Shown in pieces: positions 14,170-62,747 of a DNA stretch of 64,000 nucleotides. The notes beneath the pieces were generated by a model that saw only the letters and a list, made by a program, of their open reading frames with translations, did not search any database and was not told the origin of the DNA. Source of the stretch: a virus; the IMG/VR virus record IMGVR_UViG_3300025869_000013, positions 1-64,000 of that record. The stretch is one strand, 5' to 3'. Within the stretch, counting starts at the first letter, position 1. Every line of letters begins with the position of its first letter. A program made the translations under genes and the position numbers.

Positions 14170-14303
14170 GCTTTGGGTTTTACCCGGGTATATTAATAGG
14201 TTTCAGAACCTATGAACAAGAGGATAGGAATAGCCATGTGTTTTACCTACCTTTTATGGATATGTGTTTAACAATTTTAAAAAATATAAATGAGTCAGAT
14301 TGA
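14151..14303 (+). CDS. Small conserved-type phage protein next to RNR, 50 aa
   Basis: MQKWELSFGFYPGILIGFRTY ... HVFYLPFMDMCLTI reads like a family of very short proteins that I recall from phages, often beside ribonucleotide reductase or thymidylate genes; no function is known to me. It overlaps the resolvase at its start and the RNR gene by 14 bases at its end. Confidence 0.6.
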   Translation: MQKWELSFGFYPGILIGFRTYEQEDRNSHVFYLPFMDMCLTILKNINESD

Positions 14304-16155
14304 TAAGGATATACTCTCGGATATAACAGTGCATATGAAATATGCTAAGTATATACCAGAGCTAAATAGAAGAGAGACGTGGAAAGAATTAGTCACGCGA
14401 AACGAGGAGATGCACGTTAAAAAATATCCTCAGTTAAAAGACGAAATAAATAAAGCGTATGAACTCGTATACAATAAAAAAGTTTTACCGTCAATGCGAT
14501 CTTTACAGTTCAGCGGTAAACCTATTGAAATATCTCCAAACCGGCTGTATAATTGTAGTTATCTACCCATTGATCATATTGACAGCTTTAGTGAGACTAT
14601 GTTCTTACTGCTTTCAGGCTGCGGGGTGGGTTATTCTGTCCAACAACATCACGTTAGAAAACTACCTCACGTCACTAAACCCTTTGATAAAAGATACAGG
14701 AGGTTTGTAATAGGTGACTCTATAGAAGGTTGGGCTGATGCGGTTAAGGTTCTTATGGAGTCTTATCTTGGTGGTAGAAAGAAGTCAGCTGTAAAGTTTG
14801 ATTACTCAGACATACGACCTAAGGGTGCTAGGCTTGTAACGTCAGGTGGTAAAGCACCTGGTCCTCAACCTCTTAAAGAATGTTTAATCAAAGTTCAAGG
14901 TATATTAGATGACAAGAATGACGGGGATAATCTTACGTCCCTTAACGTACACGATATCGTTTGCCACATTGCTGACGCTGTCCTTGCTGGGGGTATCCGG
15001 CGCGCTGCCCTTATATCATTATTTAGTGCATACGATGAGGAAATGATCTCGTGCAAGTCTGGGGACTGGTGGGAGTTAAACCCTCAGCGAGGTAGATCAA
15101 ATAACTCGGCTGTTCTTATGAGACATAAGATAACTAAAAAGTTTTTTATGGACTTGTGGAAACGTGTTGAAGCCTCAGGTGCTGGTGAACCAGGTATATA
15201 CTTTAACAACGATAAAGATTGGGGAACTAATCCATGTTGTGAGATAGCTCTCAGGCCATATCAGTTCTGCAACCTATGTGAGGTTAATGTATCAGATATA
15301 GAATCACAAAGTGATTACGAGGATAGAGTTAGAGTAGCATCTTTTATAGGTACGTTACAAGCTGGATATACTGACTTCCATTACTTAAGAGAGATATGGA
15401 AAGAAACAACAGAGCGAGATGCTTTGATAGGTGTATCTATGACAGGTATAGGTAGTGGAACTGTTTTGAATTATGATATGGCTGTTGGAGCTGAAATCGT
15501 TAAAAACGAAAACGCTAGAGTAGCTAAGATTATAGGTGTTAGAAAAGCTGCGCGTACAACATGCGTTAAACCTGCAGGGACGACATCTCTGGTACTAGGA
15601 ACATCTTCAGGTATACACGCATGGCATCACAAACAATATATCCGTAGATTGCGTGTAGGGAAGAACGAGGCTATATATGAGTACTTAAAAGCTAACCATC
15701 CTGAGATCGTTGAAGACGATTACTTCAGAGCACACGACACAGCTGTAATAAGTATACCACAACAGGCTCCAAAAGGTTCTATTCTAAGAACTGAATCTCC
15801 TATGGATTTATTAGAAAGAGTTAAAAAGGTTGCTACAGAATGGGTTAGCAACGGGCACAGGAAAGGTTCTAACTCTCATAATGTTTCGGCTACAATATCT
15901 ATCAAAGATGATATGTGGGATGAAGTTGGAGAGTGGATGTGGAAAAACAAAGATCACTATAACGGTCTATCTGTTTTGCCTCATAATGGAGGTACATATA
16001 AACAAGCTCCGTTTGAGGATATAACAAAGGCTAATTATGATGAGTTGTTGAAATCTCTAAACGAGATAGATCTAACTAAAGTTATAGAGCTAGATGATAA
16101 CACGGATCTTTCTGGTGAGTTAGCTTGCTCAGGTGGATCATGTGAGGTTACGTAA
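14290..16155 (+). CDS. nrdJ: Class II (adenosylcobalamin-dependent) ribonucleotide reductase, monomeric RTPR type
   Basis: Reduces ribonucleotides to deoxyribonucleotides for phage DNA synthesis. Key features: YNCSYLP (first redox Cys, near 88), NPCCEI near 314-319 (radical Cys in the N-P-C-x-E motif), VKPAGTTS near 428 (phosphate loop), and a C-terminal shuttle pair ACSGGSCEVT like that of the Lactobacillus triphosphate reductase. There is no partner small subunit gene and no ATP-cone. At 621 aa it is shorter than the ~740-residue bacterial enzyme. It depends on host B12 supply. It is the last gene of the plus arm, followed by a terminator. Confidence 0.92.
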   Translation: MSQIDKDILSDITVHMKYAKYIPELNRRETWKELVTRNEEMHVKKYPQLKDEINKAYELVYNKKVLPSMRSLQFSGKPIEISPNRLYNCSYLPIDHIDSFSETMFLLLSGCGVGYSVQQHHVRKLPHVTKPFDKRYRRFVIGDSIEGWADAVKVLMESYLGGRKKSAVKFDYSDIRPKGARLVTSGGKAPGPQPLKECLIKVQGILDDKNDGDNLTSLNVHDIVCHIADAVLAGGIRRAALISLFSAYDEEMISCKSGDWWELNPQRGRSNNSAVLMRHKITKKFFMDLWKRVEASGAGEPGIYFNNDKDWGTNPCCEIALRPYQFCNLCEVNVSDIESQSDYEDRVRVASFIGTLQAGYTDFHYLREIWKETTERDALIGVSMTGIGSGTVLNYDMAVGAEIVKNENARVAKIIGVRKAARTTCVKPAGTTSLVLGTSSGIHAWHHKQYIRRLRVGKNEAIYEYLKANHPEIVEDDYFRAHDTAVISIPQQAPKGSILRTESPMDLLERVKKVATEWVSNGHRKGSNSHNVSATISIKDDMWDEVGEWMWKNKDHYNGLSVLPHNGGTYKQAPFEDITKANYDELLKSLNEIDLTKVIELDDNTDLSGELACSGGSCEVT

Positions 16156-16176: not shown

Positions 16177-16212
16177 AAGGGGATAGCCGTCGCGGTTATC
16201 CCCTTTTTTTTT
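16177..16212 (+). terminator. Rho-independent terminator between the convergent arms
   Basis: AAGGGGATAGCC and GGTTATCCCCTT form a 12-pair stem (one G-U) around a GTCGC loop, followed directly by nine T's. It ends plus-strand transcription after RNR. On the minus strand the sequence after the stem is T-rich but interrupted (CTTCTTTGTTTT), so it may also stop the late operon. Confidence 0.9.
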
Positions 16213-16681
16213 ATATTACTTTGTATTTAGTTTTACCTTTATCTTTGTAGGCTTTTAAACACCTGTGTCGGTTTTCATCTTCATTCACGTAGCTTATATG
16301 AACCCAAGCTGGATTATCATCATCTCCAAACTCCCATATTATCTGATCGTAATCAAGGTGATACCTTATGTACTTAAACATTTCAGCGTTTAGATTTGTG
16401 AACTTACCACCGTAGGTATCATCTATATCTATAGCAAATCCTTCGCAGTGTTGAGATTTTTTACTGCCTCCAATAGCCACGTTAAGCTCGGGTGATCTGT
16501 AAAAACTGTTTATCTTGATTGGACCTCCAACCCACTTTCTCAGTGGTTCAAAAACCTTTTTAGCTAAAACCTTCATATTCTCTAGTTGATCTACGTCAGG
16601 TATGTTTTCTATGCCTCGTCTAAGAGCTGTATTGCTTCGTGTAGCCTCTCTGTAGCTTATGTGTTTACTTATATTATCCAT
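16211..16681 (-). CDS. M15-family peptidase endolysin (L-alanyl-D-glutamate or D,D-carboxypeptidase type)
   Basis: 156 residues. Metal and catalytic motifs of the M15/DacC-like group are present: INSFYRSPELN, SQHCEGFAIDID (S-x-H-x-x-G-x-A-x-D) and a late WEFGDDDNPAWVHISY (Glu ... W-V-H). It would cut peptidoglycan for lysis. It has no signal peptide, so release probably depends on a holin (candidates at 62355 and 62963). It is the last gene of the late arm, ending in the shared terminator. Confidence 0.87.
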   Translation of the reverse strand: MDNISKHISYREATRSNTALRRGIENIPDVDQLENMKVLAKKVFEPLRKWVGGPIKINSFYRSPELNVAIGGSKKSQHCEGFAIDIDDTYGGKFTNLNAEMFKYIRYHLDYDQIIWEFGDDDNPAWVHISYVNEDENRHRCLKAYKDKGKTKYKVI

Positions 16682-22232: not shown

Positions 22233-24950
22233 TTATATTCTTCCGCTAATTCGTTTTTTTCTTGTACCAAAAGTACCTGCGCTACTATCGTAAACGTTGA
22301 CCACCACTTTAGATATTGAGTCTGCCGAGGTTTTATTTGTTGTAAAACCGTGCGCTTTACTTACTGAAACTCTTATTGGTTTCATAAAGGAATCTTCACT
22401 GGCTAAATCATTATCTCTAAGTATCAAACCATAGGTTAAAAAGTAATCTCTAGGTTGCGCTGGTATTGTTAGTGACTTGGTTTGATAAGCCCCAATACAT
22501 CCAGAGTCAAATTGTACTTGAGCGACCCAACCGTTAGTACCAGTATCAGAAGAAGGATCCGTAACCACAGTACTACTAGTATCAGCTTTGTACCTACCTT
22601 GTTGACCGTATGGCCCAAATTGCGCTTCTAATCTAGGGTAGTCTCCTGTGCCAATACTCGCCGCCGTGCCATCATACTCTGTTGTTACTTTAAAAGAGGC
22701 ATCAAGCTTCACTACCGTTCCAGCGTGTATAAATAAAGTATCCGTAACACCTGACCCATAGGTCTCATCGTCTTGCGTCCAAAATAATCTCCACTCATTT
22801 GATTTTTCTTTGAAAACCGCCGTCTCTCCTTGCACTATTATAGGGAACGCGTCTATACCAAATCTGTTGTTTATAATCCTAACCGTAGAACTGTTGTTAC
22901 TTTTAGTAGATTCAAACGTGTTGAAACTTGATCCATACTTTCTAAAAGCGTTGTTAGTATAATTTATACCATTTTGACCATCTCCGTAAATTTTTCTAGT
23001 TTGATCCCATAGGTTAGGTGTTAATCGACTATCCATTACAGTTATTAAACCAAGATCCGAGTCAAAGTAGAATATTTGTCTATACTTGTCCGCGAAAAGC
23101 CTTTTAAGAAAAGGGTTCCTAGTGGTACCCCCAAATCTGTAAGCATAGTTTTGAACTTGAGAATCCATATAGCCTACTCCAAAATCACATTGCGTATCAT
23201 TTTGCCTAAGAGTATTACCAACCTTTATACCATAATCTTCACTCATTCTAGCCGTGTAATACGCTATGAAGTTATTAAAAGCATACGTAGCTTCATTGCT
23301 AATGTTATGTGAGTTAGCAACCATTGAGATATGTCCAGAGCTTTTTACGGAATAGCCTGAGCTCCACCTATAATAACCTTGCCCAGTTCCAACTATTACG
23401 CAGTTTCTATCAACATGCCCATATGGGTGTCTAATGCATAGGCTAGGGTAACTATCTCCATCTCTCGTAGAATTCGAGCATAAAGAATAAGCTGTTACAG
23501 TGCATCCGTCAACATAGTTTTCCCCAGTCTGGCTTATGCCATAACTCGTGTGAACCGTTGCGTTTGTGTGGCTAGACCCAGTGATGGTTTCCGAGTATCT
23601 ACCATTATAACCAGCTATATTAACACCAGTTCTAAAATTTGTACTGTCGCCTGTGTTGTAACCTAGGTTTTTAAACCTAACATACTTAATTTTTACCCTC
23701 CTTGTGGGTGCGTTGCTAGAGGTGGGGCTAGTCCAATACTTAACATTAAAAAACACTCTAGCTGTGTCTTGATCTCCATCAGCTACTTCATCCCCATTTG
23801 CAGCGCAAGCCTTTATAACGATATCTCTAGTTATCCTTATAACATAGCAGCCTACCACCGAATCATAAACAATATCTCTATTTACGGTTATATCAGTACC
23901 ATTAATAGCACTTATGGTATACAAAAGATTATGCCTCCAATGGTTGGTTTCACTACCACTTGTGTAATTAACAACCGTGTCAGATCTAGATTCTAAAGCT
24001 ATTTCGTCACCTACGCTGAAGTCAGACGCGCTAGCCACACTTATAACTCTTTGTGCTTCCGATCCTGTTATAGCCGTAGTAGTTGTTGTAGCAGTTCTTC
24101 TAACATATGCATCAACATTGTGATACACATCTAGTCCAGTATCGTACACGGTAACCCCATCAACCGATCCAGTAACATTACTAGCTAAAGTTATAGTTCC
24201 ACCAGATATACCAGTAACTGCAAGAGCGTTTCTATTATTACCAGTACCAAAAACCAATTTATATCCAACTCTAAATTGTTTTGCCTCATTGATGTCAACC
24301 AGTATGGTTGCTCCACTGCTGCTAATTACGGTTGCTGTTGGGCCTGTAAACTTTCTTACGTATATTCTTTTATTGTCACTGTCTATGTCATGTACTCTAA
24401 AGCACTCGTCTGCGTTTCTAGTGTAATGTATCTCTCTCTCGTAAACAGAAATTAAATCCCCAGCTGCAAAATTTGTAATACTGTCAACAGTAAGATAAAC
24501 ATCCTCGTAATCGCCAGCCGCGCTTAGCTGTGTGACCAACGTAGGTTCGCCCCCTTGTATGTCGACTCCACACCACTTCCTTGCGTCAACCTGTATCCCA
24601 TGCTGAGCGTTGTTGTTTCCAGATATTTTAATTTCAGTACCTCCAACCATACTCAGTAAAGAACCTGAAGCCGCTGTTCCTTCCACAAACTCACCTGTAG
24701 CTGTAGCGTTATGACTAGTGTTTTTAACAGTCATCCTACCATTCAAGTGCATCTTACCACCATCAGCGAAGTGTAAGTTACCATCAATAGTTACATTGTC
24801 TGTTATAGCAGCTTGAATATCTGTACTTAGCGTAACCTTATGTCCGTGCGCAATTACAACAAGATCGTTGTTAGCTGGAACTGCTCCACCAACCCATGTA
24901 CCTGTAGCGTGCCAATCACCTGTCTGTGTGCTAGTTATCGTTGCCATCAA
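22233..24950 (-). CDS. Putative tailspike with N-terminal G8-like domain and beta-helix, 905 aa
   Basis: The N-terminus (TGDWHATGTWVGGAVPANND, AHGHKVTLSTDI, GNLHFADGGKMHLNG) fits the G8 / beta-helix entry pattern seen in polysaccharide-binding secreted proteins. Residues ~400-650 have histidine- and asparagine-rich turns typical of right-handed beta-helices (pectate-lyase-like spikes). The C-terminal ~100 residues (IPAQPRDYFLTYGLILRDND ... RVSVSKAHGFTT) look like a capping sandwich. A depolymerase or glycan-binding spike is likely; no catalytic residues could be assigned. Confidence 0.65.
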   Translation of the reverse strand: MMATITSTQTGDWHATGTWVGGAVPANNDLVVIAHGHKVTLSTDIQAAITDNVTIDGNLHFADGGKMHLNGRMTVKNTSHNATATGEFVEGTAASGSLLSMVGGTEIKISGNNNAQHGIQVDARKWCGVDIQGGEPTLVTQLSAAGDYEDVYLTVDSITNFAAGDLISVYEREIHYTRNADECFRVHDIDSDNKRIYVRKFTGPTATVISSSGATILVDINEAKQFRVGYKLVFGTGNNRNALAVTGISGGTITLASNVTGSVDGVTVYDTGLDVYHNVDAYVRRTATTTTTAITGSEAQRVISVASASDFSVGDEIALESRSDTVVNYTSGSETNHWRHNLLYTISAINGTDITVNRDIVYDSVVGCYVIRITRDIVIKACAANGDEVADGDQDTARVFFNVKYWTSPTSSNAPTRRVKIKYVRFKNLGYNTGDSTNFRTGVNIAGYNGRYSETITGSSHTNATVHTSYGISQTGENYVDGCTVTAYSLCSNSTRDGDSYPSLCIRHPYGHVDRNCVIVGTGQGYYRWSSGYSVKSSGHISMVANSHNISNEATYAFNNFIAYYTARMSEDYGIKVGNTLRQNDTQCDFGVGYMDSQVQNYAYRFGGTTRNPFLKRLFADKYRQIFYFDSDLGLITVMDSRLTPNLWDQTRKIYGDGQNGINYTNNAFRKYGSSFNTFESTKSNNSSTVRIINNRFGIDAFPIIVQGETAVFKEKSNEWRLFWTQDDETYGSGVTDTLFIHAGTVVKLDASFKVTTEYDGTAASIGTGDYPRLEAQFGPYGQQGRYKADTSSTVVTDPSSDTGTNGWVAQVQFDSGCIGAYQTKSLTIPAQPRDYFLTYGLILRDNDLASEDSFMKPIRVSVSKAHGFTTNKTSADSISKVVVNVYDSSAGTFGTRKKRISGRI

Positions 24951-26516: not shown

Positions 26517-26873
26517 TTAGTTTAAATATGCTTTCCCATCTACCGCTATAGCGCTGCTGTTTGAGAAAAAAGTTATTGTTAGTTGGTTTATTGAGTTATA
26601 CACCACCTCCCCTCTTACTACAGACCCTCCAGTATCTACAACGGTGACAGAAGGGTATGAGTTTAAACTGTGAGTTATAACCCACGTGTCGGCGGCATTA
26701 GCCTTAGTGTATGTAAAAGTACGGTTAGTCCATGTAACCACGCTTCCAGTTGTAGTAAGCACTTGGCCCACAGTCCCAGCCGCCCCAGTAGAGTCAATGA
26801 TCTTTTTATCGACAGAGACATCCTCTCTTAAAAGAGTTTTTACGTCATGCACATGAGCTCCAACCCACTTCAT
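26517..26873 (-). CDS. Short tail-fibre tip-like protein, 118 aa
   Basis: The last ~75 residues (WVITHSLNSYPSVTVVDTGG, NQLTITFFSNSSAIAVDGKAYLN) are the same type of tip module as at the end of the 456-residue fibre. The N-terminus (VDKKIIDSTGAAGTVGQVLTTTGSVVTW) is a fibre-shaft-like segment. Likely an independent short fibre or tip adaptor. Its ATG touches the stop of the T9SS cargo gene. Confidence 0.7.
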   Translation of the reverse strand: MKWVGAHVHDVKTLLREDVSVDKKIIDSTGAAGTVGQVLTTTGSVVTWTNRTFTYTKANAADTWVITHSLNSYPSVTVVDTGGSVVRGEVVYNSINQLTITFFSNSSAIAVDGKAYLN

Positions 26874-29014
26874 TATTTAATGATCTTTTTAGTGATTACG
26901 CGGTTGTTGTACATTATACGTATTGTATATATCCCTGAGGTCCATAGGGACGCGTTTAAGACATTTGTATTTATTTCTGATATGATAAGACGTCCTGTAG
27001 AATCGAACACGTCTAGATCAACGTTTTTGTTTATATTTAACACGTCTCCAACTGGATTAGGATAGACTACTAAATCATCTCCAGATAGTATAGCTTCAAT
27101 ACCTGTAGCAGAGCAGTAGTCAAAAGTCTCTTGACATGTATTATCCCACTCCTCTTCACAGCAATATGGATCAGCTTGAATAACCCAAGCAAAACACATA
27201 TCGTTGAGCCAATAACCATCGCCATATGGCTCACCTAAACCAGTGACACATCCTACCGCCTCATACAGACAGACTTCCGGATCAGGCATATTAACCGCCG
27301 TATCATAGTTGTAAGCTTCGGGGTCCGCGCATCCTTCCAAGACTTCAATACAAGAACCGTTGTCAGAGTTAGCCAACGGATCGTAATTAAAGGCATTACT
27401 ATCAGTACAACCATAAGCGTAAGGAATACAACCACCGTTTTCTGTGTTAGCTTCTGAATCATAGTTATATTGTGTTGGGTCCATACAGCCAAATATAAAC
27501 GGTTCGCAATCACCTACATCAGTTGCTAGAACATTATAATTAAATGCTGTTGGATCCACGCATCCAACTACTTCGAGTTCGTCACAAACACCATCATTGT
27601 CTATATCATTATTACAAGCATTATCACAATCATAATACTGCACGGAGAAAAAACAACCTTCGTCTACATTAGCTTCATTATTGTAATTACAAGCTAAATT
27701 ATCCGTACAACCTACAACGGGTAATACGCAGTAGTCAGAACAAACAGGTGTACCATTATATATGTAAGGAAACTTTTTCAACGGATCAGTCCAAGGATTA
27801 GTACCGCTTTCTAACACTACTCCATTAGGACCTTCAACTCTAAACCCACACTGAGCCGCTGTTGTTTCAGCGTTGCCACCCGTAAAAAAGTAAACACTTA
27901 TGTCTTCATTAGAGTTTAAGGTTAAGTTAAACTCCTCTTCATATCCATCATTAGGACCCATTTGATACGGGCCGTATAGATTGCTACCTTGTTTTAAACC
28001 TAACCAACTTCCAAACCAACCGTCTGCTCCTCCGTCTGTGATCACAAGTGAGTAATCACACGATGCTTCAGTTTCTATAGTATTAGCAGTGGGGTTGTAG
28101 TTCAATGCTTCTTCTTGTGTACACCCTAAAACAACCTCAGTTAAGCAACTATTGTCATCTATTAAAGCTTCTGGATTATACTCTATGTAATTTGAATCTG
28201 TACAGCCTTGAGGTATTATAGGTATGCAAGGTGGGACTATATATGGTCCTGAAGATGCTGTGTCAAATAGCTCAACGCCACCTATAAAAAGTATGTCTTC
28301 ACCGCACAAAGTTCTAACATCGAAGTAACCATCTACCCCTCCCCAACAAGTACCGCATAATCCGTCCCCGTAAGAGTCGTATACGCTAGCCACTAAAGTA
28401 TCACCTACTCCAACGCATACGTATGTTGGTGAAGTAACCCCTGTCGTAGTGTAACCCTCACCCGAAGCCACAACTTCTCCATTAGCTGTTATATCCCAGC
28501 TTGTTTCAGACGGGTAGCTATCAGGTGTAATTAAAGCTATAATATTTGTTTGGCCAGGTCCGCAAGGCATAGGCGGAAACACACACGGTGCTTGATCATT
28601 AGCCCATGGATTGAAGTTTAAAGCACCTACGTCCATACACCCAGTTATAGGTGGCTCGCAATACGGAACTTCAAAAAATGTTGTGGTTGAAGGACCTGCA
28701 AACTCATAATCGTATATTTCTAACCCACAAGAGTTAGTTAAAGAATACCAGCCGTTTCCAAAATCACAACATATACCATCTCCAAAAGAGTCGTATATAA
28801 CAAAGTTATAATCTCCTGAGTCAAGAGGTACTACAACTTCTTGTAAAGAGTTACTAACGTACGGAGGGCTAACCGCTACAATTTCCGCGTCTTCGTATAT
28901 CTCCCAAGAAGTCTCTCCTCCGTAGTCATCTGTCTGTACAGACACTTTCACCCAACTATCTTGGCTAAAAATTGTTAACGGTAATAAGAATAATGCTAGT
29001 AAAAAACTTCTCAT
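26873..29014 (-). CDS. Secreted repeat protein with type IX secretion (Por) C-terminal sorting domain
   Basis: 713 residues. A signal peptide (MRSFLLALFLLPLTIFS, likely cut before QDS) is followed by modules DSFGDGICCDFGNGW and DSYGDGLCGTCWGG, and about eight cysteine repeats of the form GC-x-D-x-x-A-x-NY-N ... G-x-C. It has a DIDNDGVCDE calcium-type loop and a WDNTC cysteine motif. The last ~65 residues, from VVYPNPVGDVLNI to RVITKKIIK, are the T9SS type A sorting domain. Expected route: Sec export, then the host's T9SS to the cell surface. No phage structural motif. It lies between a thioredoxin-fold gene and a fibre tip gene. Confidence 0.9.
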   Translation of the reverse strand: MRSFLLALFLLPLTIFSQDSWVKVSVQTDDYGGETSWEIYEDAEIVAVSPPYVSNSLQEVVVPLDSGDYNFVIYDSFGDGICCDFGNGWYSLTNSCGLEIYDYEFAGPSTTTFFEVPYCEPPITGCMDVGALNFNPWANDQAPCVFPPMPCGPGQTNIIALITPDSYPSETSWDITANGEVVASGEGYTTTGVTSPTYVCVGVGDTLVASVYDSYGDGLCGTCWGGVDGYFDVRTLCGEDILFIGGVELFDTASSGPYIVPPCIPIIPQGCTDSNYIEYNPEALIDDNSCLTEVVLGCTQEEALNYNPTANTIETEASCDYSLVITDGGADGWFGSWLGLKQGSNLYGPYQMGPNDGYEEEFNLTLNSNEDISVYFFTGGNAETTAAQCGFRVEGPNGVVLESGTNPWTDPLKKFPYIYNGTPVCSDYCVLPVVGCTDNLACNYNNEANVDEGCFFSVQYYDCDNACNNDIDNDGVCDELEVVGCVDPTAFNYNVLATDVGDCEPFIFGCMDPTQYNYDSEANTENGGCIPYAYGCTDSNAFNYDPLANSDNGSCIEVLEGCADPEAYNYDTAVNMPDPEVCLYEAVGCVTGLGEPYGDGYWLNDMCFAWVIQADPYCCEEEWDNTCQETFDYCSATGIEAILSGDDLVVYPNPVGDVLNINKNVDLDVFDSTGRLIISEINTNVLNASLWTSGIYTIRIMYNNRVITKKIIK

Positions 29015-29015
29015 G

Positions 29016-29384
29016 TTAAAAATCGCTATAAATTACTTCATCAATAACTGATTGAACTTGCTTTCTAGTGGCTTCCAGCTGCATCATAATGTTAGCTTGA
29101 AACCTCTCTACTTCTTTCCCGTTGAAAACTATAATAGTAGGTACAACTACTATACCGTAATCAGATTGATAAGTACCTTCATCTATGCTAACGTTCATTA
29201 CATCGCAGTCTGTTAACTCTTCAAGGTAATCTACATTATTGCTCGTGTTCCAACTAGCATTAAACTGTACAACGCAAATATCACTACCGCATAGGTTTTG
29301 TCCAAAAGCACTGCCGCTTAACAATGCCCCTAGCATAATTAAAGCATACACCACTACTGTTCTAAAATTCATTGAATTCTCCAT
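29016..29384 (-). CDS. Exported thioredoxin-fold protein lacking the CxxC motif
   Basis: A signal peptide (VVVYALIMLGALLSGSAFG, likely cut before QNL) is followed by a thioredoxin-like body: CVVQFNASWNTSNNVDYLEEL, DVMNVSIDEGTYQSDYGIVVVPTIIVFNGKEVERF. The cis-Pro block VVPT and the following GKEVERF strand are typical. Where CxxC should be, it has WNTSNN, so it is not a normal oxidoreductase; a C-G-S-D-I-C pair near the new N-terminus could form a disulfide. It may be a chaperone or partner of the cysteine-rich cargo downstream. M5 is an alternative start. Confidence 0.75.
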   Translation of the reverse strand: MENSMNFRTVVVYALIMLGALLSGSAFGQNLCGSDICVVQFNASWNTSNNVDYLEELTDCDVMNVSIDEGTYQSDYGIVVVPTIIVFNGKEVERFQANIMMQLEATRKQVQSVIDEVIYSDF

Positions 29385-29390
29385 TATATT

Positions 29391-29675
29391 TTACTTTAAT
29401 TCATCAATCTTTCTCTCTATATTATCTAGATCCTTTTTTATTTCCTTAACATCCTCTTGAGTACTCATGATAGTCTGACGCACTAACTTGTCTTTCATAT
29501 CAAACTCCATGCGCGATATCTCTGGTGGCTGAGGCTCAGGTAGTTCCTTAGCTAAAGCTATGTCAGCTTGTAACGTAAAATACATACCTATTAAAGCAGC
29601 TAAACCTGCACCCGCTATTCCGATTGTTTTGAGGTCTAGTGTTACTTTAGTATCCTCACCTATTTGTTTTGCCAT
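29391..29675 (-). CDS. Membrane-anchored coiled-coil protein, 94 aa
   Basis: One hydrophobic segment at about residues 16-34 (TIGIAGAGLAALIGMYFTL), then a proline-rich neck (ELPEPQPPEI) and a long charged coiled coil (EDVKEIKKDLDNIERKIDEL). A short cytoplasmic start and large periplasmic helix would suit a spanin-like or holin-associated protein, but no lipobox or partner is visible. Lysis role possible, not shown. Confidence 0.6.
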   Translation of the reverse strand: MAKQIGEDTKVTLDLKTIGIAGAGLAALIGMYFTLQADIALAKELPEPQPPEISRMEFDMKDKLVRQTIMSTQEDVKEIKKDLDNIERKIDELK

Positions 29676-29686
29676 TTTATTTTAAC

Positions 29687-29920
29687 TTACATTTTTACAC
29701 AGTTGTCCACTGTCTTACCACCTTTCTTTTTTGTTCCTTGTAACTTGTAACCTTCCCAGCAAGCTTTACCATCTAGTCCTTTTTTCTTTTTCATAGGGCT
29801 ATCTTCCATCTCATCGATGTGCTTGTTTATTGTTTTAGCTTGTTTACCGTGAGCAACAACCGCTGAGTTAAGTTGTTTCACAACCTCTTTGAGGTTTTTG
29901 TATTTCATTTTAAATGCCAT
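29687..29920 (-). CDS. Hypothetical basic protein, 77 aa
   Basis: Helical N-terminus (YKNLKEVVKQLNSAVVAHGKQAKTINKHIDEM) and a lysine-rich C-terminal part with two cysteines (GKACWEGYKLQGTKKKGGKTVDNC). It resembles small, basic, late-expressed proteins of marine phages in style. Function unknown. Confidence 0.55.
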   Translation of the reverse strand: MAFKMKYKNLKEVVKQLNSAVVAHGKQAKTINKHIDEMEDSPMKKKKGLDGKACWEGYKLQGTKKKGGKTVDNCVKM

Positions 29921-29930
29921 GGCTATTTAT

Positions 29931-30305
29931 TTAACAGTTCCACCTACGTCTAGCGGCTAAACCTCTTTTACCTTTCCAACCTTTTGATCTTGCGCAAAAT
30001 GATTTTCTACGTTTTGCTTTCTTGCTATTAGGATCTAATTTTGAAGGCGCGGTAGTTACAGCTGTTTGTAACTCACTACCTGGATTATTTCTTTTGTATT
30101 CATCAACACCTTTCTGAGTCATACCACCACCAGCTGCACCACCTGTTCCAGTTGGGTTAGCTTTGTTAAAATTTTTACCCGGACCTATAGTTCTGCGTGG
30201 GTCAGCTTTTTTCAGCGGCGAATTAAATCCCTTGCCTATGCCTTCAGCTCTACGTCTACCACATGATGTTACTGGAAAAGGGTTATTTTTTTGAGTATAA
30301 GCCAT
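29931..30305 (-). CDS. Hypothetical very basic protein, 124 aa
   Basis: Glycine-, lysine- and arginine-rich with little order predicted. The end NSKKAKRRKSFCARSKGWKGKRG is similar to an RKSFCAR-type motif I recall from small virion-associated proteins of marine phages. It may be packaged with DNA. Located between the exported proteins, but has no signal peptide itself. Confidence 0.55.
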   Translation of the reverse strand: MAYTQKNNPFPVTSCGRRRAEGIGKGFNSPLKKADPRRTIGPGKNFNKANPTGTGGAAGGGMTQKGVDEYKRNNPGSELQTAVTTAPSKLDPNSKKAKRRKSFCARSKGWKGKRGLAARRRWNC

Positions 30306-30308
30306 ATC

Positions 30309-31352
30309 TTAAAAGATTACATAGTTTACTCCACACTTAAAGTTGTACCACTCTCTATTCCAGTACTTGTTATACTTACCTTCTAAGAATAATCCTAAGT
30401 GTTTATTTAATCTATATCCAAATATCATACCACCCGAGTAATCAAGCCATTGACCTCCTACAGAGTTGTGATACATAAACTCGTTACCACTATCCACGTG
30501 GTATGGCATAACGTTTCCCCAAGCGTGTAGCCAGAAGTCATCTGTGTAGTGGTAGAAATCAAACCCAGCAACAACAGAGTGTTGTATTAATTTATTTAAC
30601 TCACCGCGTTTTCTTTCAGCGTAGTCTGATATAACTTCAGGTATAACAACCGCTTCCCATACTTCGGTACTTGTAGCAACAAGCTCTCCTTCTGGTGAGA
30701 AGTACTCCGCGTTAGGTACGTCTACCGTGTATCCCTCTTGTAAAGCTAAGTACGTGTAGTGTATATCGTTGTTATCAAGTAACCATTCATCTAAAGGATT
30801 ATAGCCATACGGCTCAGAAGCTCGCTGCGCTAAACCTAGGTTAAACGAAAACTTTTTTCCTAGTTTCAATCTATATCTTTGTGACGCCTCAAAGTAAGAT
30901 ATGTCTGCAAAGCCGTCTTGTAAGTACTCTCCTTTAACAATATAATTATCTCCTACATATCTTAAGAAATGGTTTTGATCAAGAAACTCTTGACCCATTT
31001 GTCTTTTGTATTTAACCTCAGCTAGAAACTCTAAGCCGTTACGCTTACCTATATTAGCTCCGTCTGACCAAGACTCTTCAGTTCCGTCATAAAAAACATT
31101 AGCTCTATTTTCATAACCAAATCTAGCTATCTTGCGAATACCCATTGTTAGACTGTAGTCATAAGGAGTCTCTATGTCAGTAGAGTTTAATCCATCACCT
31201 ACAGACCATACTGTTTGATCAGCAATAGAGTTACCTCCGTTTACAGCCGAATAAAAAGTAGCGAACTTAAAAGCTTTTTTAAACCCTTGAGCGTGAACAC
31301 AGCTATATGATAACAGCAGGGTAATTAATAAAGTTAGTCGTGATAGTAACAT
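30309..31352 (-). CDS. Exported outer-membrane beta-barrel-like protein, 347 aa
   Basis: A signal peptide (LLSRLTLLITLLLSYSCVHA, likely cut before QGF) is followed by ~325 residues of alternating strands rich in Tyr, Trp and Phe (YDYSLTMGIRKIARFGYENRANVFY, LEFLAEVKYKR, HSVVAGFDFYHYTDDFWLHAWGN, HLGLFLEGKYNKYWNREWYNFKCGVNYVIF). It ends in phenylalanine, the usual signal for outer-membrane insertion. It overlaps the end of the giant ejection protein gene by 19 bases, so it is expressed late. A role in blocking receptors or altering the host envelope is inference; a captured host protein is possible. Confidence 0.7.
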   Translation of the reverse strand: MLLSRLTLLITLLLSYSCVHAQGFKKAFKFATFYSAVNGGNSIADQTVWSVGDGLNSTDIETPYDYSLTMGIRKIARFGYENRANVFYDGTEESWSDGANIGKRNGLEFLAEVKYKRQMGQEFLDQNHFLRYVGDNYIVKGEYLQDGFADISYFEASQRYRLKLGKKFSFNLGLAQRASEPYGYNPLDEWLLDNNDIHYTYLALQEGYTVDVPNAEYFSPEGELVATSTEVWEAVVIPEVISDYAERKRGELNKLIQHSVVAGFDFYHYTDDFWLHAWGNVMPYHVDSGNEFMYHNSVGGQWLDYSGGMIFGYRLNKHLGLFLEGKYNKYWNREWYNFKCGVNYVIF

Positions 31353-34300
31353 TTTCCAGATTTATTTGTTGTTTGCATTTTACACCTGTCTCCGTTAGAT
31401 TTAACGTGAGAACACTGTTTCTTTTCTCCATCAGCTCTCTGCGGTGCGCCTTCGTGTATCGTACAGAAGTTACCTCCACCTTTAACTTTGTTACCACACC
31501 TACTTCCTGATCTACTTACAGCAGCACATTTTATGTCTTCTTTACCATCTGCTCTTTCTTCATCCTGCTCTAACAAGTTGCTTTCTATAACCGCCTCTTC
31601 TTCAGCTTGTCTTTCAGCGTCTTTAGCTCTCTTCTTCATCTCCTTTCTTTCCTCTGCTTCAGTTGCTTTAATCTCTTTTACCTCGCCTTTAGCTGCTACC
31701 ACGTCTTGGTTTTTGATCCCAAAGTTCCATTTGCTCCAACCTAGGAACATAGCTATTCTTTGCCACATTTCATTATCTGCGTTTAATGATTCTGATATAT
31801 TTTGATATTTATTGTACAACCTGCTAAGCGGTAAATTCGTAACAGCTTCTGTTGCACTAAATGCAGCGTCGTAAACTGGGTTGTCAATATCTGTTTTTGA
31901 CATGTGAGCTATAACATCTCTATTAAAATCCCATGTCTGCGAAGCACTGTAAAGCTTTCTAGCTTTAATACCTATCGGTGGAGATATATTAAGAGCCTCA
32001 ATCAGAGTGTTAGCGTGGTTAGCTTGAGACAACCAATTATCATCTTGCTCTTTCTCTTCCTCCTTCATGAACTTAAGTATAACGTTCTTTACTGTAGCGA
32101 CTATAGCACCACCCATACCTGAACCGCGTAGCAAGGTGTCTACCATACCGTTCGCAACCCTTTCTTTTTTCTTATCCGTTAGTTGATCTTCTTCATCATC
32201 GCTAAATAGAGCTGCAAATAAAGCTGACTGTAACCCGTAGAATATTAAGTTCTGAATACCACCGTAGTATACAATCCTAGATATATTAGCTTTAGCATCT
32301 CCTCTCCCGTTAACTAAATCTTGCGCAGCTTTTTTAATCAACCTGTTATACTGCATAGGTGTATTTTGGAAAGCTAGTATAAACTTACCGAGTGGTGAAG
32401 CTTGTTGTTGAGAGATTTTATCTTCTCTTGTAGACTGCTGAGTTTCCTCCGCTATCTCCATCATATCTTCAAATGCTTTAGTCTCCGCGTCAGCCTGAGT
32501 CATACCGTCTTTCAAGTACGTCTTGATTCTATTTCTATAGAACGTAGCACCACCTGTTGCAATAGCAAAACTATCCGCGATCTGCGTAGGTGTAAAACCA
32601 AGTTGCAACAAATAAGCTGTTGCTGCTTTGGCTTTATTCTTTGAGTCTTTTATTTGAGCTAGTAACTCAGCTGCGTTAACGTCTGTCTGAATACCAGATC
32701 TCCTTTGCTTTAAAAACGGAGAGTTAAATATCATAGATACATCACCCCAGTATTGCTTCTGGTTAGCGAACGCGCTCGCTGCTGCAACCATGTTGTTATC
32801 ACTCCAGTTAACAAAGTTAACATTAGAGATCATCTGTAGCATAGCTGATCTAGCATTTAAGAACATAGTGGTACCTATAGAACCATGTATCCAATTTGTA
32901 AAGTTATTAAGCAGTCTTCCCGATCCACGAGATTTATTACCACCAAACTCCATGCGGTATAGGCTATCCTCTAAGGCTTCTCTAAAGTTAGAACCATATA
33001 CGGCCTCTATTTTGTTTAGATTAGCTTCGGTAAACAGTATATCCTTATTCTCTTTCCACTGCTGTAGGTATGTGCCTCTAGCCACGTCTAAAGCTTCTTT
33101 CAAATCTAAAGCTATATTACCTCCAAGCCAGTGGTTATCAGGTTCTACCATACCACCTGGTGTATTACCAATAGAATTTACACCTTGAGCGAAAGCGTTT
33201 AAGCTAGCGTCATTTTCAACCGCGTTAATAAGGGTCTGCTTATCTGTTTCAGATAAACCAGGGATATCAAATCCAGCTTTAGCCCAGTTGTATACCCTTA
33301 TAGCGTCTTCATGTGTGTACTCCGTTCCAGGTATATTTTTACCAAGCTTCTTCCTAACTTCTGGCATAGCTTTTCTAAGCTCTTTCATATCGTTAGCAAC
33401 GGTTTGCTTTACCCTGTTAAGATGTCTTACACCTTTAGAGAACGGATCAAATAAGTTTTCCTTGAAAAACTGGTGATGCTTTTCTCCTTGCTTGCCTTTA
33501 CCCATAAAGGCATACATTAATCCAGCAAAGTCATCCGCTGAAGGTGGTACAAAAAATTTAAACTTACCTTTGTTCTTACCTCTCTTTCTAGCTTTAACCG
33601 CTGAGAATACTTTTCTACGGTCAACACCTTTGCTCTGCTCTAACATTGTGTTTAAGTCAGAGCTAAGATCAGTCTCTCCTTCAGATATGATTTCACTCAT
33701 AACTCTAGGTCCGGATCTACTAAACTTTAATCTCGCTTGCTGAACTTTACCTTTTACGTCAAACTGATCAAGCATATCTTTAACAGCTTTCACATTTTGT
33801 ATAGCGTCATCCGCAAAGTAAAAATCATTGTAACCCTCACCTACCTTTTCCGCTATCCAGTTAGCTTTAGCCGAAGCCTCTGACTTACCTAAACCTGTAA
33901 TATTCTTAAGCGGTATTTTCAAACCTTGAGCGTCTAAGAACTGCTTAATAGCTTTAGCTGAATCTGGCGATCTAGCAGTAAGGATAAACATGTTCTCTGT
34001 TCCAAATTTCTCAGAGAGCTTCATGGCTTTATTAAATAACGGCGCTGTCTTACCATCAACAACTTTATTGAATTCAGAGAAGTTAAACTCAACTCCTTCA
34101 GCCAGTAAATCTTCACCAGCTTTAGCAAACTGCTCAGCGTTTAATACACCTTGAACCACTTGAACCTTACGTGGATTTGACATAAGACCGCCGCTTCTAG
34201 CTTGGTGTCTGGTTTTCTTTAAGAACTCCTTGAAATCCATCTCAGGGTTCGCAACACTCCCGCTACCCATAGGTTTACCATCTATGTCTAACACTTTGAT

Positions 34301-37300
34301 CAATCCGTAACCTCTACCGCGCGTACTCTTGTCTCTATTAAGCCACATTACTCTAGTGCCTTCCGGACCAGTTAGCGTAGCGTAAAAATCCTCTGGATTC
34401 AACTCGAAGTTCAAGCCTTTAGCGCTGGGTGTTGTAAACCAAACATTAGACTTAGTTGTAGCTAATGTATCATCAAAGTCTAAAACTGTAATGCCTTTAG
34501 GTTTAGTGCTAGAGCGAGACGCCTTGATAGCATTGTCCATAACCTTAGAGTCTTTAGATCTCGCGTTTATATCACGGATGCTAAAGTCTATATTAGCCGC
34601 AGCTTCACCATACACTTTGCCTTTGTCTTTTGGATTAAGGCTCTCTATAGCATACAAGTCAGGATGACCAAATGTAGACATGTTATAGTAGCGTTGAGTA
34701 GAGCTATTTCCAACTATGTAACCCATAGGCATGACTTGAGTGAGTTTAACTTCATCAAGAATATTATCCATTGTGACAGGTATAACAGCCACAGTGTACT
34801 CTTTAAACAACGCGTCAAGATTAACGTTACCATCGTTCATGTATGCGTCCGTCAATTGCATAACCATGTAGTTAGTAGGTATCATGTGCTCATACCTAAA
34901 CTCACCTTTGTATTTCTTTCCAACCTTGTCTTTGAACATATAGCCTAAGTTAGCCGCTCTCTTTAGCGGTGACTGCATGTTGCTAGCCATGCTCATCATC
35001 ATCATACCAAAGTCTTCTTTATCTAATGCTCCATTTTCAATTTGATCTTTGTAATGTTGAGCTATCTCTCTCACAACCAGCTCAGATGTGTCCGCTTGTT
35101 TTTTTCTTCCAACGTAATCTTTGTCAGCTCTTGCCGCTTTAGATGTTTCAGCTAAAAGACTAGTGTCTATTTTAACGCCGTCGATAGTTTGTATCTTCTT
35201 AAGATTTCCCGCTTCGGTAAGTTGCACGTCATCCCCAAAAACCTCTTTTAAAACCGACTTATTGAAATCCTTTTTACCTTCAAAAAACTGATATCTTTGA
35301 GTACCATCACCAGTGTTGTTAACGTCAACTGCAACTCCGTTTTTAACTACAAAGTTTCCTCTACCGATCTTGGAACTAGTAGCGTACATACCACTAGCAT
35401 GCACAAGCATTATTAAAGCTTCAGCTTTCCCGTATTTTTCAACTAACTTATTAGCCACAGTAACAGCCTCAGCGCGGCCTGTGTTTATCTTGTCTACGTT
35501 ATCAAAGCTTTTTGCTAACCTCAAGGTTTTACCGTCCTCGTCTTTTAATTCCAAGAACTCCGCTAGATTTAATGATAATTCCGCGGCTTTTATGTTGTCA
35601 GTTAAGTATTCATTTAAAGCTTGCTCTGGTTTTGTGTTAAGATTTGCGTGGCGTTTCTCTATAGCGCCATACCTGTCAACCATTTTAGCAATATCTTTAG
35701 CAAGAGCAGTGGCCTTGCTTCTTGTGTAGTGCTTACCGTAAACATCTTTAACAACTTGAACCACGGCACTCTCGTCGTTGGGGTTAACTTTTTTAAGAGC
35801 CTCGCTTAAAATAGGGAGATTGTTGTAAAAAGTTTTTCTTTCAAGTGGAGCGAGCTTTCTTACGGACTTACTAAACTTAATACCCGGGTCCCTATCTATT
35901 TGTTTGCCTATGATAGACACTTCGTTTTCAGCCTGAACTTGCCCTGTTAAATCTAATATGTCTGATCTACGGTTAGAAACTTCAGGAGTTTGAATCGTCT
36001 CCATAGTCGCGTCAAACCCAAGCTCAACACCCATCTCCATAGCTAACTTATCTTTCCTAGTGCCAAGGGTAGACGCACCTACTTTATACCCAAGAGTGTT
36101 GTCCATGTTCTGACCTCTGAAATAGGCCATAACTTTTTTAGAACCAGGGTAAGGTAGTTTAGTAATTAAAGTTGGACCAGATAGTCTGTTGGTATCTTTA
36201 GGTAGTAAACCATCACTGATTAACTTGTCAACCTCAGTAGGCTTAGTTATCCTCTCTGACTTAGTAAATATCCTTTTAGCTGGATCTATATTACGCTCCA
36301 TCTGTAACAATGTTTCTTTTGGAAGAAACTTGAATACAGTAGGGAAGCTCTCAGTTAGGAAGGTATCGTACGCAGCGCCTTTACCTATCATATCTTGGAT
36401 AGGTTTCTTGAGCTCAGTCCTATAGGCTTTCTGTAACGCGGCTTTAAATTTTTTAGAGTTTACATCAGGTAGCTTTGTGCCAAACGTTTTCATAACAGCG
36501 TTACGAACTTTGTCCATCATAGGTTTTTCTAAACCTAGTTCAGTTCTAAGACCTGAGTACTTATCTGATTCAGACTTACCTTGCTCAGCTAGTTTAGCCC
36601 GACGAGATTGAGCTTGCATAGACATGTCTTGCTCTTCAAACGACGTTACACCAGCATCAGTATCTGCTTCTACTTGTATTACTGGAGCACCCTCAGCTGT
36701 CTTAGCGTCGATGTCTTTCGCGCCTTTCATAGCTTCGTCAACCTTGTACTCTTTATTATATACGTTACCAGCTTTGTTTCCTATCTGGCTATTTATATAA
36801 GCAAATAGATTATCGTTCTGCTCTGGCTTAAACCTTTTAATGTGCGGCGTTATCTCAGAGTAAACCTTTTCAACAAAGTCTCTTGGTACAGGTTTAACTT
36901 TATACTTAGAGGCTATAAGAGCATCGAAGTAACCATTATCCTTCATGTCTTTTATAGCGGCATCAGCTCCACCTCTTCTCCAGGATTTATTTGTATTTTT
37001 AGTCCCTAGATCTTTAACGCTTTTAGCAGCAGCTTTCCTTTGATCAGAAGTCATAGAGTAAGTTATGTCACCTGACTCAGTCACCTCTCCCTCACCTTTA
37101 GTGGCTTTTACTATCTTACTACTTAAAGCTCCTTTGTGAATACTCTTATTGTACTCTCTTAAGAAACGATATACGTCTTTACCTGTTTTAAATTTAATCT
37201 TATTGAAACCTGCTTTCTTGAACAGACCCATTTCGTTGAACGCATCTCTTATCTTATCGAAAACAGTCTCTTCATACTTAATCTCTCCCTTACCTATAGC

Positions 37301-40300
37301 ATCTGAAACAAGAGTTAGATATTCATCTGGATTCTTCTCCATATACTCAGGTGAATAGTTATCATCTATTCTTTGCTGTACAACAGACCATTGACTACCA
37401 ATCTCTTTTTTTAACTGCGATATAACTTTTGTTGAGAGATCAGTGTTAACATTCATGGCTTTCTTAAGTATACCATGCAAAAGCTCATGACTACCAACTG
37501 TTACGGCTCCTGTTTCAGCAGCTACCGCTCTGTTTATAACTATGTTATTACCATCGATAAATCCATCTGACGAAGCTGCTTCTTCCCCGTATTTCTCTCT
37601 AATCTGTTCAACGCTCATCTCGTCGTTAACCTCTAACCCATACAGAGCGCTGTGCTTTTTAGCAAACTCTATGTTCTCTTCAAACTGCTGATCAGGAGAC
37701 TTTAAAGGCATAGTTGTTTCGCTATACTTTATGTCCGCTACATTAGGATCATATTGAGAAAGCATATCTGCTTTTGTGGCGTTGTTAGCCATCATCTTCT
37801 TAGTAAGCCTATCTTCTATAGCCTCTTTTTCAGTCTCAGATAAAGTGTCATCGTTTTTAACAGACTCCCATTGAGCTTGTATTTTTCTCTTACCTCTTTC
37901 TAATCCAAGAAGCTTCTTCTTATCGTTCTCAGTTAGAATGTCAACCCTCTTAATGTCTCGCTCCAACATCTCTGTTGTCTCAGCCGTGAGCTCTGCTATC
38001 TCTGTTTGGATAACATCTTGAGCATCTTCTGATAACTCATGGTCTTTATTAAGTAAAGACTCAGATAACTCGTTTATCCTAGTCAGGTTAGCCTCTCTAA
38101 TAGCGTCTGTGTCTGGCGATCTAAAAGCGTTCATAGCGTGGTTAGCTACAACGGGCGATTTTAAAGCCCCACTCATCATAACGCCACTCACAAACGATTC
38201 TTCTACCCCATCCCAAAATCCAGCTTCTCTGTTTCCAGACCATATGTCCATTAGGTTGCCGGAAATTGTAGCCACGGCCTCTGATCCACCTTCTTCAAGA
38301 AGGTCTTTCCCAGTGGCCCTAAGAGCTTTAGCAGAAAACACATTCTTAGTGAGATAATCAGTAACACCTGCCCTCACGCCTTTGCTTTTGATCATGCCTT
38401 TGAACACGCCTTTAGCCGTGTTAACTTGGCCTAATGTTATTTTCTCAGACAAAGCCTCAGCGGCTCCAGATACGGTTGCGTTTAAGAACATTTCTCCAAA
38501 AGAGTAATTGTTACCATACAATCCCCCGGATTCAGCATGTAATTTGTTTTGCGCTTTTAAGTCTAAATACTTTTGCCCTGTAGACGTTATACCCATAGCG
38601 TATAACGATGCGCCACCCGTAGTTGCCATTAGAGCTAAGTTAGGAACTTGGCCTGCCATCATAACAGCAAACCACTCACCAAAGTCCCCTACGTTATCTA
38701 TATCATCATACTGCATGTGATACATGTTATCGCTCAATTCAGCTTGATAAGCGTCTACAGCTGCGTGCGCTTTTTCCATCGCAGATGGATTGTCATCTCC
38801 GGAATCTTCGTAAGCCGCTAGCATACCCCGCATAACTGGATCGCCACTTGCTATGATACCTTGCTTAGCAAGATCTACGACCATTTCCCCGGCAGCAACT
38901 CCTCCTTGGACTAAATCAATAGCGGCGTTGCCTAGAGATATACCCATTCTGTTAGCTAAACTATAGTCCAAGCCAACGAGCTGAGTGTACGATCCAACGT
39001 CTTCTATGTCTACTTGAATATCACCGATCTTTTCGCTTGCTTTTACGGCTGCGTCAGTTATTAGTTCATAGTTTCTCTGCTTGCTGCTGTAGTTAGCTAC
39101 TAGTTTTTCATGCCCAGCTATTATATTAGCTATCTCACTTTTAGCTGTATCAACCTCCTCCTGGGTTTTAAACTCCCTGCCTTTTATAGCGTCTATCTTA
39201 CCCTGAGCATCGTAATTCTTTAATGCTTCACCAGACGCTTCAAACAGCTCTTTAATAGCCGTATGCTTTTCTTTTATAACCTCATATTCCCCAAGCGTTG
39301 CTTTCTGCTTTTTATTTAGCTTCTCTAGCTTTTCTTTACCAATAGCCTCTAACACATCTTGGTCAAAATCACCGATTTTACCTGTACCCCATTTGCTCGC
39401 TTTATCCGCTACTCGTTTAGCAAGTAAATCAGCTTCTTGATTGTAAGCGTGTATATCAATAGCTTTTCTTTTGACTTGCTCGTCATTCATAGCTAAAGCG
39501 TTTAGCTCGGCTGGTATGCCCCACTCTCTGTCGTCTTCAGTTATTTGGTAGTCCTCCTTCTCTTTATCTGAGTATGGGGTTCCGTCGTCATGCTGCAGGT
39601 TCTCTCGAAAATTAGTCTCAGCTACCGTGGCCCTAGCCTGATTCAGTGCGCTACTTGATTCCCTCAGTGCAGCGTCTGTTTTAAAAACGTCAGGTCCGCC
39701 GGGCGTAGTGTTTAAACGCTTGTATTCACCAACAGTAAGGTCACTTTCCTGCTGAGAATCCTCTTCAACTTCCTTAGTGGCCTTGGCTAAAGCGTCTTCT
39801 CTTTCTTTGGCCGTTATCTTTACCCCCTCTAAACTCTTTTCCCAATCAGCAAGTTGATCAACCGCTCTACCTCGCATCCACGCATCCATATCCTCCTTGG
39901 CATCCTCATCACGCAAGTCAAATGTTTTTTTGTTGCCGTCTTTATCTACGACGATTATATTCTCCTTGTCGCCTCCAAAAAACTCAGTGTCATACTCTGA
40001 CGCTATATCAAAGCCATAGCGAGCATACTTATCGTTTAAGATCTTACCAGCGTTTTCAACCTTTGGAAACTCTATGAGGGACACTTCGGGCATGCCTTCC
40101 GTAGAACTAGAGTCGTCCTCTGGTTTACTACCACTAGTCTTTATAGACTTAGCTAGCTTTTCCTCTTTTTCTATTTGATCATCGTGCTCTTCGTTCTCCC
40201 CTGGCACTACGGTGTTCCTGTCGACTCCCTGGTTATCCCAATAGTTAGTGTCTATAGATACAGCCGTGATATCCTTCGCTGAAGCATCTGCAACGGTGAG

Positions 40301-62354: not shown

Positions 62355-62747
62355 TTATTTTTTTACTTTTTCTAGTGATCTACCACCGAAGTAGGCTCCA
62401 ATCACAGTTATTAATACTAGTTGTAGTAAGTCAACCCAAGAGGATTTGACTTCAAAATTTATCGCACCAGCATCAATAAAGATCAATAGCATCGTGCATA
62501 CTATTAAGAATATAAGAACTACGGGTCTTACATTCTTAGAAAGCCATGAGTCAGACTTTAAATCTGCCTCCCATCGAGAAGTGATATTCTTCTCCATCTC
62601 GATTTCGTAGTTGGCTACTAATTCTTTTATTTTCCTTTCCGCCTCTAGCTTTTCATCTTTCGATGTAGTAAGGTTATCCAGTACTCCACCCACACCCTTA
62701 ACGAGTTCAGCCGCACCACCAGAAAATATCTTACCTAGTAATTTCAT
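62355..62747 (-). CDS. 3TM-type holin-like protein, 130 aa
   Basis: A charged N-terminal half (TSKDEKLEAERKIKELVANYEIEMEKNI) is followed by SWLSKNVRPVVLIFLIVCTMLLIFIDA (membrane segment ~75-98) and WVDLLQLVLITVIGAYFGGRSLEKV (~108-128). It matches the 'holin of 3TMs' family (gene-transfer-agent type) in layout and in the SKNxRP and GGRSxEK blocks. It probably forms holes for the endolysin at 16211. Confidence 0.8.
   Translation of the reverse strand: MKLLGKIFSGGAAELVKGVGGVLDNLTTSKDEKLEAERKIKELVANYEIEMEKNITSRWEADLKSDSWLSKNVRPVVLIFLIVCTMLLIFIDAGAINFEVKSSWVDLLQLVLITVIGAYFGGRSLEKVKK

Follow-up and report, generated by a model that had tools for sequence, protein, structure and literature searches.

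A block of predicted exported proteins in a phage structural operon

The window covers 64,000 nucleotides of the IMG/VR virus record IMGVR_UViG_3300025869_000013, which is 68,252 bases long. It encodes on its minus strand a 713-residue protein that ends in a sorting domain of the type IX secretion system (T9SS), and which we refer to as the cargo (Table 1). Its ORF runs from an ATG at 29014 to a stop codon at 26873-26875, exactly where an earlier sequence-only reading had placed it. The cargo gene starts 1 nt past the stop of the upstream gene, its own stop overlaps the start of the next gene (TAATG), and it lies on the same strand as the portal, terminase and fibre genes. The shared strand and tight spacing point to a position within the late structural operon of the phage, as had also been proposed. 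PHROG matches in the record are to a terminase, a portal and a virion protein, and relatives of the terminase occur in elemoF (Flavobacterium), phi13:2 and Calle_2 (Cellulophaga), Gundel_1 (Tenacibaculum) and the uncultured podovirus ctfjg026. A search for tRNA genes as a clue to the host found none.

Proteins with a clear signal peptide, namely the cargo, a thioredoxin-like (trx-like) protein and a beta-barrel protein, all fall within 26873-31352 of the window, and tm94, with one TM segment by hydropathy, is encoded between them. Two further small ORFs inside this block lack an export signal. The sequence-only reading had missed that the cargo gene is one of four neighbouring exported genes and that its tail type, as discussed below, is interchangeable. 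The trx-like protein matches TIGR01068 with an E-value of 0.0026, below the family cut-off, and a CXXC active site is present in none of its 118 distinct homologues. Its C-terminal MSDF, mostly conserved in the family, reads YSDF in the window. The tm94 protein has 115 distinct homologues and finds only weak matches in PHROGs, to families of unknown function. The barrel is modelled with ~12 barrel strands (pLDDT 75) and its sequence ends in F. The nearest fold in the PDB is the NanC porin, and an unnamed viral protein in BFVD is matched at E 7.9e-25. At least 394 relatives of the barrel are found in uncultured viral contigs, while sequence searches gave no relative in INPHARED and no family match in Pfam or NCBIfam. 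A PorV relative was considered as the identity of the barrel and rejected, given the lack of a family match and the NanC-like fold. Because the barrel, the trx-like protein and the transmembrane (TM)/coiled-coil protein come from genes neighbouring the cargo, the four products would together span the whole envelope.

Several other features of the window are listed in Table 1. The giant ORF encodes 3067 aa and has two zinc-binding-like motifs at its C-terminus, CAAVSRSGSRCGNKVKGGGNFCTIHEG and CSHVKSNGDRCKMQTTNKSGKCYYHD. A fibre-like protein of 905 aa carries a G8 domain (PF10162) at its N-terminus, and a further region matches B12-dependent (class II) ribonucleotide reductase families. The window also has a crAss-muzzle-like region, although none of the phages with related terminases carries a crAss-like annotation.

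Table 1. Coordinates of the cargo, its parts, the neighbouring exported proteins and other features of the window
Feature	Position	Strand	Basis
T9SS cargo, 713 aa	26873..29014	-	ORF, profiles, AlphaFold model
Signal peptide, cargo residues 1-17	28964..29014	-	hydropathy
Beta-sandwich domain 1, residues 19-126, DSFGDGICC motif	28637..28960	-	AlphaFold model
Beta-sandwich domain 2, residues 155-254, DSYGDGLC motif	28253..28552	-	AlphaFold model
Beta-sandwich domain 3, residues 318-421	27752..28063	-	AlphaFold model
Cys-repeat stalk, GCxDxxAxNYxxxANxxxGxC, residues 435-583	27266..27712	-	motif pattern
Cys-rich domain GYWLNDMCFAWVIQADPYCCEEEWDNTC, residues 588-634, directly N-terminal of tail	27113..27253	-	conservation in alignment A2
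Type A T9SS sorting domain, residues 650-713	26876..27067	-	TIGR04183, PF18962, fold match
Trx-like protein, signal peptide and thioredoxin fold, 122 aa	29016..29384	-	TIGR01068, family alignment
tm94, 94 aa, one N-terminal TM, C-terminal coiled-coil-like region	29391..29675	-	hydropathy
Small ORF	29687..29920
Small ORF	29931..30305
Outer-membrane beta-barrel, signal peptide, 347 aa	30309..31352	-	AlphaFold model
Giant ORF	31334..40537
B12-dependent ribonucleotide reductase matches	14290..16155
Endolysin	16211..16681
Fibre-like protein	22233..24950
crAss-muzzle-like region	45221..50731
Holin	62355..62747

The cargo carries an intact type A sorting domain

From N- to C-terminus, the cargo consists of a signal peptide, three beta-sandwich domains, a Cys-repeat stalk, a small Cys-rich helical domain and a type A sorting tail. 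Hydropathy and cleavage context predict cleavage at MRSFLLALFLLPLTIFS/QDSW, and the resulting Q at +1 is nearly invariant (alignment A2), which bears out the signal peptide originally assigned to the protein. The description of its repeats as calcium/cysteine modules holds for cysteine, with 39 cysteines in total, none of them within the sorting tail, and ~11 GC-motif starts in repeats of the GC-x-D/N type. Calcium binding is weakly supported, by one TSP3-like stretch recognised by eye, NDIDNDGVCDELE, and a Pfam search of the focal protein returned no calcium-binding family. Complete orthologues have between 5 and 19 repeat motifs when counted with a single pattern. The AlphaFold model of the cargo has a mean pLDDT of 70, with most of the tail at 76-85, and its domain arrangement is unreliable because the overall pTM is 0.33.

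Two lines of evidence identify the tail as type A. Firstly, TIGR04183 matches it with 49.8 bits in the record search and 43.1 bits with hmmscan (cut-off 23), and PF18962 matches with 42.3 bits (cut-off 27). When the last 90 residues were shuffled 20,000 times, the tail motif never survived, and it is absent from the other ORFs of at least 100 aa in the window. The second line of evidence is structural: the modelled tail (residues 650-712) is a beta-sandwich that matches NucA (8glk_D) with a probability of 1.00, a TMt of 0.72, 3.0 A and 30% identity, and also matches FspA (8glj_D), RemZ (8gl8_D) and the isolated C-terminal domains (CTDs) of RgpB (7pq4) and mirolase (8qb1) with a probability of 1.00. 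The CTDs in 8glk_D, 8glj and 8gl8 were solved within the T9SS translocon. Lys 713 is invariant across 20 orthologues and may correspond to the near-invariant lysine close to the C-terminus of type A CTDs (K1110 in RemZ) that contacts PorV (PMC10994853). Both the profile check and the structure prediction suggested with the sequence-only reading thus agree with an intact type A domain in the last ~65 residues.

TIGR04131, the profile for type B tails, has no match in the cargo by hmmscan; it also matched none of 50 related viral records, in a search whose control matched nowhere either. A type B, SprF-like pair was rejected as an identity for cargo and barrel, given the missing TIGR04131 match and a barrel of a different kind. 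Type A cargo is secreted via SprA/PorV and processed by PorU (PMC10202324, PMC10994853), and the phage protein would presumably follow this route. Taken from profile, fold, strong conservation and the tail swapping described below, export of the cargo through the host T9SS, as first suggested, is a well-supported prediction. Since the largest of the exported proteins ends in a host T9SS tag, a phage protein is probably exposed on the surface of infected cells.

The module is conserved across uncultured viruses

Nine independent viral contigs contain a relative of the cargo, with identities of 38-93%, and in most of them the neighbouring genes are also shared. Compared with five close relatives, dN/dS is 0.10-0.18 for the whole cargo and 0.12-0.31 for its tail; these values indicate purifying selection, and both the gene and its tail are therefore maintained. 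A recent pick-up of a host gene, or a chimeric assembly with host DNA, either of them without phage function, might be suspected from the many tail-bearing proteins in metagenome-assembled genomes (MAGs) of the host order, some with such repeats. This explanation is scarcely credible: gene order is constant in many contigs of different metagenomes over that whole range of identity, the dN/dS of the cargo is low and its GC resembles the rest of the phage. A chimeric join in particular, which the sequence-only reading had allowed for, is excluded by the same synteny in independent contigs.

A Cys-repeat protein occupies the slot near the barrel in 58 of the 83 barrel loci examined and is complete at its C-terminus in 54; each of the 25 loci without it has at most 2.83 kb of DNA past the barrel. 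Of 83 records searched with TIGR04183, 31 score over its cut-off. The alternative, short tail described below, used by itself as a query against viral contigs, found 158 relatives, and among the best 80 of these loci a cargo-like body is present in all 80, with trx-like (70/80), tm94 (67/80) and barrel (66/80) genes within 6 kb. In the records of loci L051, L055 and L056, second repeat proteins of ~1540-1570 aa lie upstream of the barrel and contain internal sub-threshold TIGR04183 matches.

Among phage isolates, the focal cargo matches only cyanophage repeats, one of them from an unannotated single-cell virus contig, and none closely. Synechococcus phage S-CAM3 has a protein with similar repeats to those of the cargo that bears a virion structural annotation, and the cargo is adjoined by fibre genes, both of which would suit a virion protein such as a tail-fibre accessory whose sorting tail is merely an assembly or structural domain. 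We regard this as very unlikely, since a signal peptide would remove the cargo from the cytoplasm, where virions assemble, and since signal peptide and tail are kept together family-wide and tails are exchanged between two host types.

On the bacterial side, a genome scan returned distant repeat proteins only. MAGs of the host order (Flavobacteriales) contain repeat proteins of the cargo kind with sorting-type tails, and the barrel is present in two MAGs. In MAG G205 (contig C32, locus L143), the barrel is adjoined by cargo, tm94, trx-like and endolysin-like genes. Because the whole module and an endolysin-like gene lie on this MAG contig, we read the contig as viral DNA that was either binned together with a Flavobacteriales genome or is integrated in one, and it may provide a host link. 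PorV was detected in 9/9 genomes tested, over the cut-off in 8/9; T9SS is common in Flavobacteriales, so that the presence of PorV is weak evidence by itself. Related Flavobacteriales MAGs, which may not represent the host of this record, each contain PorV and 36-43 type A matches. None of the five phages with related terminases (the closest cultured relatives elemoF, phi13:2, Calle_2 and Gundel_1, and the uncultured ctfjg026) has a type A T9SS domain (TIGR04183), and the wider phage group thus does not need this export.

Two tail types are exchanged on a common cargo body

The 54 complete slot proteins beside the barrel all have a sorting tail, which is of type A in 29 and of a second, short type in 25, the latter count including five assigned by reading the tails (L027, L030, L055, L056 and L060). 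Some barrel loci are near-duplicates, and distinct barrels number 22 with type A (window included) and 25 with the short tail. The phage short tail has the consensus TDLLGRPxK..NKLLLFIYSDGSVxKKIIKK and no match to the tail in Pfam or NCBIfam. Exchange of the two types is seen most directly in a type A cargo (L037) and a short-tail cargo (L026) that are 77% identical up to residue 692, with a likeness that runs through CQATYNYC[DE]GTWSGPL and tails that differ beyond it. This boundary also marks out the Cys-rich domain at residues 588-634. Mapped on the barrel tree, tail type changes ~5 times, with at least two changes forced by supported branches.

Matches to the short-tail profile occur in 68 of 198 genomes of the Flavobacteriales, reaching at least 34 in a single genome. 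The short tail may therefore be an uncatalogued sorting signal, possibly one that depends on the T9SS. The short and type A tails can be brought into register by eye; common descent of the two is not claimed because their profile comparison is weak (5% probability). Small marine Flavobacteriales (L131, L134, L135, L142 and others; alignment A1) have a short tail of the form LLKITDILGRExKGxKNxxLFYIYDDGTVEKKI.

Relation to known systems

The sequence-only reading knew of no description of a phage-encoded T9SS cargo; such proteins have in fact been published. Three Cryophage genes encode type A T9SS domains, and for these a hijacking of the host system was suggested and a possible role in superinfection proposed (PMC7468147, Nat Commun 2020). 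As in the window, type A domains stand on phage genes. The Cryophage genes are three variable ones (an endoglucanase, a GH39 protein and a PA14 protein), whereas the cargo of the window belongs to one conserved family, in a four-gene export module whose tails switch between two types. A second report describes a T9SS sorting domain in an ORF of the crAss-BACON kind (PMC6949934, Viruses 2019). There too, the phage infects Bacteroidota and the T9SS domain lies close to head and structural genes, and the window phage also has a crAss-muzzle-like region. The crAss-BACON ORF differs in its body of BACON repeats and in being a single ORF with both features, and it is not reported to have barrel or trx-like partners.

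Host type A cargo such as NucA, RemA/RemZ and RgpB resembles the phage cargo in its signal peptide, type A CTD and fold, and possibly in its conserved lysine near the C-terminus; the window cargo differs in being phage-encoded, within a structural operon and next to the barrel gene of a phage. The pairing of type B cargo with PorP/SprF, as in SprB/SprF, likewise places a secreted surface protein next to an outer-membrane barrel. In the window, by contrast, the CTD family is type A or short rather than TIGR04131, and the barrel has no PorP/SprF match and a fold nearest NanC. Phage outer-membrane proteins that change receptor exposure include the lambdoid Lc porin and T5 Llp. These also insert a phage protein into the outer membrane of the host, either in the course of infection or in lysogeny, but they are unrelated to the proteins of the window and neither is known to use the T9SS.

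Searches of an open-access library, in which most subscription papers are missing, turned up neither a conserved phage module like this one nor tail swapping; the papers found contain only isolated annotations of phage use of the host type IX system. Thus, phage T9SS cargo is known in outline, and a conserved four-protein set with interchangeable tails appears to be new.

Possible roles of the module during infection

Under our proposed mechanism, the cargo would be produced late, alongside the structural proteins, cross the inner membrane by Sec and fold with disulfides in the periplasm. Its C-terminal sorting domain would then direct it through the type IX translocon of the host (SprA/PorV), and at the cell surface it would be anchored or released. 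The phage would add a barrel in the outer membrane, a periplasmic protein with a thioredoxin fold that lacks the redox motif, and a TM/coiled-coil protein in the inner membrane. Receptors on the infected cell could thereby be hidden or blocked, such that superinfecting or freshly released phage fail to adsorb. We lean towards this reading, in which the module is a late envelope-remodelling set and the surface cargo alters the infected-cell surface, for example by blocking superinfection or re-adsorption. The build of the cargo in models, with outer beta-sandwich domains or, in one relative (L180), a MAM domain in the N-terminal part of the body, a variable disulfide stalk and an attachment end, suggests a surface adhesin or shield.

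A role in lysis is the main rival because of M15 endolysin and holin neighbours, although we consider it unlikely. The module would here breach the outer membrane at lysis, with the T9SS only putting the cargo at its working side; tm94, with one TM and a coiled-coil-like end, would act like an inner-membrane spanin, and the barrel and surface cargo would weaken or clear the outer membrane. Within 6 kb of the best 80 of the 158 short-tail loci, M15 endolysin genes occur in 35/80 and holin genes in 15/80. An M15 gene directly follows the cargo in two loci (L003 and L005), the cargo comes after a holin-like gene in another (L008), and the products of the four genes span the envelope. Against this, an outer-spanin-type lipobox protein is absent, the translations of the trx-like protein and the barrel showing no consensus lipobox by eye. 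The holin and endolysin of the window itself lie far from the module, and the cargo resembles an adhesin stalk rather than an enzyme or a membrane-active protein.

That resemblance also fits a displayed cargo that acts as an adhesin, by which infected cells stick to particles, glycans or neighbours and so aid phage spread. Stalk repeats and beta-sandwich domains, the MAM domain and other N-terminal domains of some cargo bodies, weak CBM48-like ones among them, are consistent with this, as are the repeat proteins with sorting-type tails in host MAGs. A Pfam search of the focal protein found no glycan-binding family, and we judge such a role distinctly unlikely. Remodelling of the infected-cell envelope remains the reading that we favour, and the surface function may, as the sequence-only reading supposed, be a superinfection block, masking or adhesion.

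A more far-reaching proposition, which we put forward only tentatively, is that a widespread lineage of marine podoviruses of flavobacteria possesses its own trans-envelope surface-display system built on the host type IX translocon, re-coating the cell and controlling re-adsorption, with the short tail as an undescribed T9SS-type signal. Such a system would comprise the barrel, a periplasmic partner with a non-catalytic thioredoxin fold, an anchor in the inner membrane and a cargo resembling an adhesin, with its tail swapped between two host types. The combination of a conserved module and exchanged tails is suggestive of selection acting on export itself. Phage effects on the Bacteroidota surface thereby become testable, and hundreds of uncultured marine viruses can be recognised by the module.
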